A stretch of 64,000 nt of DNA from Oceanobacillus halotolerans (GTDB lineage: Bacteria; Bacillota; Bacilli; Bacillales; Amphibacillaceae): NCBI RefSeq assembly GCF_010993955.1, contig NZ_WIXL01000006.1, positions 124,001 through 188,000 of the forward strand. Direction: 5' to 3'. The translations under genes were made by a program, and so were the position numbers. Positions 49,939 through 51,849 of this stretch are shown one piece after another; position 1 is the first letter of the stretch, and every line of letters begins with the position of its first letter. The notes under the pieces are model-generated. The model was given only the letters and a program-made list of their open reading frames with translations. It had not been told where the DNA came from and ran no database searches.

Positions 49939-50136
49939 CTACTGTCTCCTTCCAAGAATAAAGTATAAAATTGGTCCCAATGTGCTAACAAATAGGATTA
50001 TTAAGACCCACAGCCATTTTGGTCCATTTGTTTCTTTGGTTCGGATTAAATCAATTAATGCAACTACCATTAAAATAGCTTGGATCACCAAGATTGGTGC
50101 TATGATGGCCCAATTGATATTTGCGAGTTCTTCCAT
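49939..50136 (-). CDS. yxlE: PLDc_N domain membrane protein, YxlE-like
   Basis: 65 residues with two membrane helices flanking DLIRTKETNGPKWLWVLIIL, and the C-terminus GPILYFILGRRQ. This is the PLDc_N (cardiolipin synthase N-terminal) motif. First gene of yxlEFG. In B. subtilis YxlD and YxlE are negative regulators of SigY; whether that role persists without SigY is open. GAGGTGAG precedes the ATG. Confidence 0.78.
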   Translation of the reverse strand: MEELANINWAIIAPILVIQAILMVVALIDLIRTKETNGPKWLWVLIILFVSTLGPILYFILGRRQ

Positions 50137-50214
50137 TTTTTCTCACCTCGTAATTAAAGGATACCATTATATACGGATTAGGTCAGTAAAAGGTTCTAGG
50201 TAATGGGAAAAAGT

Positions 50215-50375
50215 AATCCACAAAGTTATGCACATTATCAACATTGTATTAATAGGATTTTTTTGTTATATCCACATTATCCACAGGTTGTAAATGAGTT
50301 ATCAACAAAATGTCTGTGCATAACTTTTGTCGAAAGACCCTGAAATATCAGGGTTAATTTAATTAGTTATGAACA
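50215..50375. promoter_or_regulatory. DnaA-box cluster
   Basis: Eight DnaA-box-like 9-mers in about 160 bp. Exact TTATNCACA: 50226-50234, 50277-50285 and, reversed, 50315-50323. One mismatch: TAATCCACA 50215, TTATCAACA 50235 and 50299, ATATCCACA 50268, TTATGAACA 50367. Two boxes directly abut (50226/50235), as do two others (50268/50277). AT-rich DNA follows to about 50420. No dnaA, dnaN or rep gene is near, so this is not oriC itself. It lies upstream of yxlE. Confidence 0.75.
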
Positions 50376-50435
50376 ACTGTTAATAACCTGTTTATAACTA
50401 GTGGAAATAAAGGATGTATTCTAATAGCTTGTTGT

Positions 50436-50740
50436 TTATTAAAGTATGGATCCTGATGGATAGTTGATATATTATGTGTCGTAACTTTAGCATGACTTCC
50501 TTCCATCCTTTATAAGGTGAGTGCTAATACGGTGCTGCAGAAAAATACGCTTCACCATGGGCACAAGTGCAACATCTGTTCAAACTCTCTCTGTTCATTT
50601 TCACAGTGTCTTCTTTGCCACGGGAACACTTCAGCCTCCTCATTGAAAAACGAAGTGACTATCCAGAGCGGAAAGAATAGCACAAAGTTACGATGCATCA
50701 TATATAAGCTACGACGTTAAGAAAACAACAAAGTATACAA
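50436..50740. repeat. Mosaic palindromic element, truncated copy P10
   Basis: Degraded and internally deleted. It has GGTGAGTGCTAATACGG near 50515, GGGCACAAGTGCAACATCTG near 50559, TTTTCACAGTGTCTTCTTTG near 50598 and an outer arm ACGACGTTAAGAAAACAACA near 50711. Confidence 0.7.
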
Positions 50741-50955: not shown

Positions 50956-51849
50956 CTATTTTTCGCTAATAGTTGCCTGTAAAGCTTCTTCTAAATGAGG
51001 GTAGTGAAATGAATAGTTGTGTTCGATGGCTTTTTCAGGGATTACATATTGCCCCTTGGTTACAAGCAGACTCATTTCCCCGATAAGGAGTCGAAGCATC
51101 AATTTAGGTACTGGCAGCCAATATGGGCGATTGAGGACACTTGCTAATGTTTTTGTGAAATCTTTATTTCGCTCAGGATTTGGTGCTGTCACATTAACAG
51201 GTCCCTTTATCGCTTCATGATCGATACAATATGAAATCATGTTCACAACATCATCAATATGGACCCATGATAACCATTGTTTTCCCATTCCAATTGGACC
51301 GCCAATAAAAGCTTTAATCGGGAGCATCATGAGAGGGAGGGATCCTTCTTTTCCTAAAATAACGCCAAATCGCATATAGACGGTTCGAATGCCGATTGCT
51401 TCTGCTTGTTCGGCACATTGCTCCCATTCCACCACAACCTTGGCTAAGAAGTCATCACCAGATTGTTCCGTATCTTCCGTGAACGTTTGCCTTTCAGATG
51501 TTCCATAAAATCCAACAGCTGAACCACTAATAAAGACTTCAGGTTTTTCTGCCATATTGTTCATTAAATCAATTGCTTTTTGGGTTGATTCGATACGACT
51601 GCGCAGGATTCTCTCTTTTTTTCTTTTCGTCCAATAACCAAATAAGGAATCACCTGCTAGGTTTACAACAGCATGTATGGTAGGAAGGTATTGTGCCGTA
51701 ACTTGATAATTGATGTATTTTACAAGTGGGGAATTTTCATACTTATATGGTGATCTAGTAAGTATATATACATAATGCCCCTGATTAACTAGCTGTTTGG
51801 TTAAATGTTTTCCGACAAAACCAGTTCCACCTGTCAGCAATATATTCAT
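50956..51849 (-). CDS. yfhF: TIGR01777-type epimerase/NAD-binding protein YfhF
   Basis: 297 residues, extended short-chain dehydrogenase fold. N-terminal Rossmann motif LTGGTGFVGKHLTKQL; the family signature AVVNLAGDSLFGYW and GSAVGFYGTSERQTFTE follow, then the C-terminal domain ending in HYPHLEEALQ. Substrate unknown. Divergent from recX, as in B. subtilis where recX (yfhG) is the neighbour. Confidence 0.87.
   Translation of the reverse strand: MNILLTGGTGFVGKHLTKQLVNQGHYVYILTRSPYKYENSPLVKYINYQVTAQYLPTIHAVVNLAGDSLFGYWTKRKKERILRSRIESTQKAIDLMNNMAEKPEVFISGSAVGFYGTSERQTFTEDTEQSGDDFLAKVVVEWEQCAEQAEAIGIRTVYMRFGVILGKEGSLPLMMLPIKAFIGGPIGMGKQWLSWVHIDDVVNMISYCIDHEAIKGPVNVTAPNPERNKDFTKTLASVLNRPYWLPVPKLMLRLLIGEMSLLVTKGQYVIPEKAIEHNYSFHYPHLEEALQATISEK

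Follow-up and report, generated by a model that had tools for sequence, protein, structure and literature searches.

A conserved DnaA-box array beside yfhE in Oceanobacillus halotolerans and relatives: the oriC box scaffold in a putative DnaA decoy

We analysed a stretch of 64,000 nucleotides of Oceanobacillus halotolerans DNA (hereafter the window), with attention to an array of DnaA boxes situated between yfhE and yxlE. Judged from sequence comparisons, the array is probably a conserved DnaA-box cluster (DBC) built on the scaffold of the replication origin, which would sequester DnaA as a decoy and in this way time initiation. We place it in the DBC system because of its position, its box content and the geometry that it shares with other arrays. 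Okumura et al. 2012 reportedly described B. subtilis DnaA-box clusters outside oriC, including gcp(tsaD)-ydiF, and may have discussed their spacing; Smith and Grossman 2015 is a further source on these clusters. The yfhE array is best read as a previously unreported member of this system. The array bears on how relatives of Bacillus limit DnaA between initiations; according to a 2026 review, it is unknown whether B. subtilis possesses regulators of the DnaA ATP/ADP balance (PMC13220808).

The array in the yfhE-yxlE gap and its conservation in the family

Allowing up to one mismatch to TTATNCACA, ten DnaA boxes were detected at 50214-50397, three of them exact (50226+, 50277+ and 50315-) and seven with one mismatch (50214+, 50235+, 50268+, 50299+, 50367+, 50378- and 50389-). 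A preliminary description had counted three exact and five one-mismatch boxes in 160 bp, some of them abutting and next to AT-rich DNA. The same count was found here in 162 bp (50214-50375), together with two same-strand abutting pairs (50226/50235 and 50268/50277) and a GC content of 28% in the array stretch versus 38% in the window, which ranks it among the lowest 1.5% of 184-bp stretches. Across the entire window, 89 boxes were counted against 95 expected, i.e. no excess, so that the signal lies in local clustering. When exact boxes were scored as 2 and near boxes as 1, the array (184 bp) scored 13, against a best 184-bp cluster of 5 in 40 Markov-1 simulations of 64 kb and a maximum of 5 when the 625-bp gap was simulated 4,000 times. 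The clustering is far above chance. As in other DBCs, the boxes thus form a dense cluster outside oriC, dnaA being located on another contig (C1). An Rfam scan yielded no family near its gathering score.

Both genes flanking the gap are encoded on the minus strand. The 3' end of yfhE (PF14152, 50762..50944) faces the array and, together with yfhF (TIGR01777 oxidoreductase, 50956..51849, minus strand), yfhE is its conserved neighbour; the next gene downstream is yxlE (49939..50136), identified by a match to the PLDc_N domain (PF13396). The array begins with distal box a (TAATCCACA, one mismatch, 50214..50222, plus strand), which occupies core position +63 in the orientation of yfhF and is kept in relatives, and continues after 3 bp with the exact distal box b (TTATGCACA, 50226..50234, plus strand, core position +51). 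The 33-bp spacer between the distal and proximal boxes (50235..50267) is conserved in length and not in sequence, offsets 9/51/12 being present in nearly all orthologues; in this genome it includes an extra one-mismatch box outside the conserved core (TTATCAACA, 50235..50243, plus strand), which abuts distal box b. The proximal pair consists of a one-mismatch box (ATATCCACA, 50268..50276, plus strand) and the exact core box abutting it (TTATCCACA, 50277..50285, plus strand). Beyond a 13-bp spacer (50286..50298, plus strand) follows another one-mismatch box (TTATCAACA, 50299..50307, plus strand), common in tsaD-ydiF arrays too, and 7 bp further, head-to-head with it, an exact inverted box (TTATGCACA, 50315..50323, minus strand) found at core position -38 in many orthologues. 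The three outer one-mismatch boxes (50367+, 50378- and 50389-; 50367..50397) are less conserved, and a perfect inverted repeat in the array region (ACCCTGA-AATA-TCAGGGT, ACCCTGAAATATCAGGGT, 50336..50353) is absent from the alignment of relatives.

The remainder of the gap includes a stretch, 50408-50660, which adjoins the array without including it and belongs to a dispersed repeat. The same genome contained at least nine copies with 76-85% identity (nine of 278 candidates scored), and shorter related pieces occurred in several other genera; the stretch looks like an intergenic repeat or a MITE-like element. A similarity search using the whole gap mostly matched this repeat, not the array.

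Conservation was assessed within the family, yfhF serving as the anchor in 119 of its genomes: 60 orthologous regions of 3-8 kb, best yfhF matches first, were compared with the window and scanned, with little tolerance, for boxes at offsets 0/9/51/63. The scan separated loci with the array (25-30 of 32 points) from loci without it (19-22 points). In 43 of 61 family loci representing 19 genera (including L087 and L096, which were placed by eye from sequence), the array was present just downstream of yfhE/yfhF, without any change of orientation, and in most loci it was situated 60-200 bp past the end of the YfhE match. The preliminary description had named a lack of conservation in close relatives as one of the grounds that would refute its proposal, and on this point the proposal holds. 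Conservation in relatives likewise supports, without strictly defining, membership among DBCs. The array was not found beside yfhF in the other 18 of 61 loci (about 30%), and in B. subtilis yfhE is not among the top DnaA regions listed, with no strong peak reported there (PMC4447404); from these two observations together, the array appears not to be essential.

The geometry of the array proved to be fixed. Same-strand distances between boxes were tallied over all 61 regions without presupposing any geometry, and peaks appeared at 42, 9, 12, 54 and 51 bp, shared by 36, 31, 31, 29 and 27 of the 61 loci, respectively, against a mean of 5. With boxes read as TTATCCACA, the core can be written as box-3 bp-box-33 bp-box·box (abutting)-13 bp-box, and in family loci an inverted box often lies 7 bp beyond its last box. 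Column identity reached 84% in the boxes and 46% in the spacers (p about 1e-14), spacer lengths being kept while spacer sequences diverge. Selection on a phased protein-DNA complex would be expected to result in such turnover at preserved length.

The comparison of orthologous loci also bears on transcriptional control. Upstream of yxlE, 61 bp before its start, lies a putative ECF-sigma-type promoter of yxlEFG (GAAC-N17-CGTA, 50172..50196, minus strand); the last box of the array ends about 17 bp short of this promoter, on its upstream side. A GAAC-N16-18-CGTM motif resembling ECF sigma factor promoters precedes yxlE in 10 of 36 loci. At several clusters in B. subtilis, DnaA acts as a transcription factor (PMC4447404). 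DnaA bound to the array might accordingly repress or activate yxlEFG, or affect read-through from yfhE, by analogy with sda and further targets in B. subtilis, and such control of yxlEFG, suggested in the preliminary description, is possible in this genome. However, only 6 of 43 loci have yxlE less than 200 bp from the array; in 18 it lies 0.8-3.6 kb away and in 19 it was not found in the fetched downstream stretch. The array is kept when its neighbour changes, which makes DnaA-dependent transcription an unlikely explanation of it and speaks against control of yxlEFG as the conserved role.

Correspondence to the oriC scaffold

The fixed geometry, and its match to the origin described here, go beyond the preliminary description. 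A degenerate pattern with gaps of 17-47 and 0-12 bp was found at no fewer than 118 loci of the named genome collection. Among the matches listed, the first gap measured 33-35 bp in 68 of 142 and 44-47 bp in 48 of 142, and the second 2-3 bp in 90 of 142 and 12 bp in 17 of 142, a distribution such as helical phasing would be expected to produce. Many of the matches listed adjoin dnaA, mostly on its downstream side and in one orientation; they come from Exiguobacterium, Thermoactinomyces and relatives, Kurthia, Clostridia, Deinococcales and Campylobacterota, distant phyla included. At oriC, what typically comes after the abutting pair is GCCCC or a similar sequence and then TACTACTAC, that is, a GC clamp and DnaA-trios. 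At least three trio units followed 39 of 44 oriC scaffolds among the matches listed, as compared with none of the scaffolds at 43 family yfhE, 7 named yfhF and 6 tsaD loci. In a second set, trios likewise followed the scaffold at none of 34 tsaD-ydiF and none of 31 yfhF loci. The oriC of O. halotolerans itself displayed a distal pair, 34 bp, a first proximal box and then a trio-like stretch.

In B. subtilis incC, a distal box was shown genetically to work with boxes 6/7 in a manner dependent on helical phasing, which was interpreted as DNA looping (PMC6669920), and boxes 6/7 with the trios constitute the basal unwinding system (PMC8287927). The yfhE element resembles the unwinding region of oriC in having a distal pair, an interval of 33-36 bp and an abutting proximal pair in the same order and on the same strand, so that tandem boxes with distal boxes at loop distance are present; the box at 50268 corresponds to the tandem boxes that stand by DnaA-trios at oriC in the named genomes. 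It differs from oriC in two respects: i) the 13-bp spacer next to the tandem boxes lacks the GC clamp and DnaA-trios found there in oriC, and the box at 50299 stands where oriC has trios, and ii) the element is not located beside dnaA-dnaN. As the oriC scaffold is present and the trios are absent, the element can be read as an origin scaffold, represented by its first four boxes, that lacks the opening sequence.

Identity of the box scaffold with that of oriC could also point to a remnant or dormant origin derived from a plasmid, a phage or a duplicated oriC, the first of which had been among the initial suggestions. Nevertheless, the array had no plasmid or phage sequence relatives at E <= 0.01, it contains neither trios nor a GC clamp, and many genera and families carry it in a single gene neighbourhood, with boxes kept while spacers diverge, unlike what a remnant would display. 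We consider an origin remnant highly improbable, and the plasmid version of it was abandoned in view of the missing matches, the missing trios and the deep conservation at one locus.

According to the decoy model, DnaA would load on the proximal and distal pairs, the spacer of about three helical turns providing the loop length, and would presumably oligomerise into the same loop that it forms at the origin. With the GC clamp and DnaA-trios of oriC replaced by another box, no strand opening would follow. The element would instead hold DnaA away from oriC in proportion to its own copy number, and this sequestration would delay or time initiation. Several points count against the decoy model: base-exact spacing is not obviously required by sequestration alone, some 30% of the family loci have no array beside yfhF, spacing at yfhF is looser in other families, and the model by which distant loci were collected favours this geometry.

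Related arrays at tsaD-ydiF and the titration of DnaA

To look beyond the family, we used R1, a sequence-only model of the core which was trained on yfhE arrays and whose matches are consequently biased towards this geometry. In the genome of O. halotolerans, R1 gave 71.7 bits for the window element and 36.2 bits for a second element at C1:432833, with all remaining matches, oriC among them, at 17.4 bits or lower. In the order, matches at E <= 0.01 were obtained in 248 of 249 genomes, a figure which includes oriC and leans to the trained geometry. The genes flanking R1 matches belonged mainly to two groups, tsaD(gcp)/rimI-ydiF and yfhF/recX/GNAT gene, and a box cluster was present beside yfhF/recX in nine other families of Bacillales. 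With gap lengths left free, 51/12 was chosen at 27 of 34 tsaD-ydiF loci of Bacillales and 51 or 52 at 18 of 31 yfhF loci of other families, both sets having been collected with R1 and sharing its bias. Spacing at yfhF is less strict in other families than in the family of O. halotolerans.

The tsaD-ydiF arrays connect the yfhE element to a characterised DBC. In B. subtilis, gcp-ydiF is one of eight high-affinity DnaA regions, where DnaA binds with a Kd of 0.15 uM and, at low concentration, ATP-DnaA is preferred 16-fold (PMC4447404, the only paper retrieved on gcp/ydiF and DnaA). Deletion of six DBCs advanced initiation (PMC5295017, PMC13220808), and B. subtilis DBCs are considered to act by sequestering DnaA (PMC11019786, PMC5010248). 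Like gcp(tsaD)-ydiF, the yfhE array is intergenic and comprises about 10 boxes in about 200 bp, and its core geometry is shared with 27 of 34 Bacillales arrays at that locus, the B. subtilis side of the comparison being known from papers. Unlike it, the yfhE array is situated at yfhE/yfhF/recX, in opposite orientation and farther from dnaA (medians of 19.6% versus 10.9% of the chromosome). The one paper found to name both yfhE and DnaA appears to deal with the glucose response. Among the three roles suggested in the preliminary description, titration of DnaA is thus the best supported by sequence, being favoured by a syntenic, conserved cluster outside oriC and by geometry held in common with tsaD(gcp)-ydiF.

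Titration could also proceed in a plainer form, in which the boxes merely soak up DnaA and their spacing reflects cooperative packing on B-form DNA, not mimicry of the origin. This strongest rival, which we hold to be quite possible, accords with the general helical phasing visible in the gaps of 33-35, 44-47, 2-3 and 12 bp among the matches listed, and with the sequestering role ascribed to B. subtilis DBCs (PMC11019786, PMC5010248). On the other hand, packing would permit many phased spacings, whereas one exact combination dominates at yfhE and tsaD, and that combination matches the oriC scaffold in both order and orientation. Plain packing and the decoy model differ in what they predict for spacer-length mutants; the confidence that we assign to the two overlaps, because in both of them the array sequesters DnaA.

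Chromosomal position and other clusters

The yfhE-side element was located 11.2-26.9% of the chromosome from dnaA (median 19.6, 23 genomes) and the tsaD-side element 5.1-16.6% (median 10.9, 24 genomes), the two being in opposite orientation relative to dnaA, in a set that includes weak matches and matches assigned by position and orientation alone. Because it lies 11-27% of the chromosome from dnaA, the yfhE element would be duplicated some time after initiation, and later than the tsaD-ydiF element. In two genomes (G077 and G323), the yfhE element occupied a mirror-image position on the opposite arm, its distance from dnaA being similar (812 and 900 kb). The conserved distance could be explained by vertical synteny, with no selection on distance itself.

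Conserved position raises a comparison with datA, DARS1 and DARS2 of E. coli, which are likewise non-coding box arrays whose internal spacing is fixed and whose relative distance from oriC is conserved, a likeness that concerns these traits and leaves box order aside. The E. coli loci contain sites for IHF (and Fis) and promote DnaA ATP hydrolysis or ADP release. By analogy, the yfhE array might regulate the nucleotide state of DnaA through its conserved head-to-head and abutting boxes. Its fixed internal spacing and the distance from oriC kept on either arm would agree with such a role; E. coli DARS2, too, functions at an equal distance on the other arm (PMC5010248), and the 2026 review leaves room for regulators of the DnaA ATP/ADP balance in B. 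subtilis (PMC13220808). Against it, B. subtilis does not possess IHF (PMC13220808) and its DBCs have so far been shown only to titrate DnaA (PMC5010248), so that we regard a regulator of the datA/DARS type as rather improbable.

A more general version of the decoy model can be proposed tentatively, with somewhat less than even confidence. Bacillales, and perhaps Negativicutes, may keep a class of origin mimics within a conserved range of distances from oriC, each with a base-exact loop scaffold but no unwinding sequence, on which a DnaA complex would assemble that cannot fire. The tsaD-ydiF and yfhE-recX elements, oppositely oriented and usually on the right arm, would then be direct competitors of oriC for assembled ATP-DnaA, or would alter the nucleotide state of DnaA. 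As the scaffold also stands beside tsaD in Negativicutes (see below), the tsaD-linked element may predate Bacilli. The occurrence of the origin's box spacing without its unwinding sequence, in one neighbourhood across families, renders the decoy-scaffold model testable, and natural variants are at hand in dozens of genomes, at two loci, with and without the element.

Several further clusters were observed in the genome of O. halotolerans. Exact boxes numbered 194 genome-wide, with positions taken from the first 100 of the 194, and among the matches listed, clusters lay close to spoIIR, to an htrA-like gene and, at a distance of about 10 kb, to dnaA. These invite comparison with the B. subtilis clusters at ywlC, yydA and trmE, respectively; those near the htrA-like gene and spoIIR recall the B. 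subtilis DBC set. The second array detected by R1 (C1:432810-432970) belongs to the opposite arm, some 377 kb away from dnaA, where it is flanked by genes for a putative lipoprotein and a GntR/UTRA regulator. The tsaD gene (C21:4362-5381) is followed by weak R1 matches only, at C21:5654-5787. The tsaD-ydiF array of this genome looks degenerate, though it is strong in many relatives, and more of the load may fall on the yfhE array here. Outside Bacilli, four loci of Phascolarctobacterium (Negativicutes; L225, L258, L302 and L320) exhibited the same box scaffold beside tsaD, with a spacer of 33-34 bp, the second gap being 3 bp in two of them and 12 bp in the other two.
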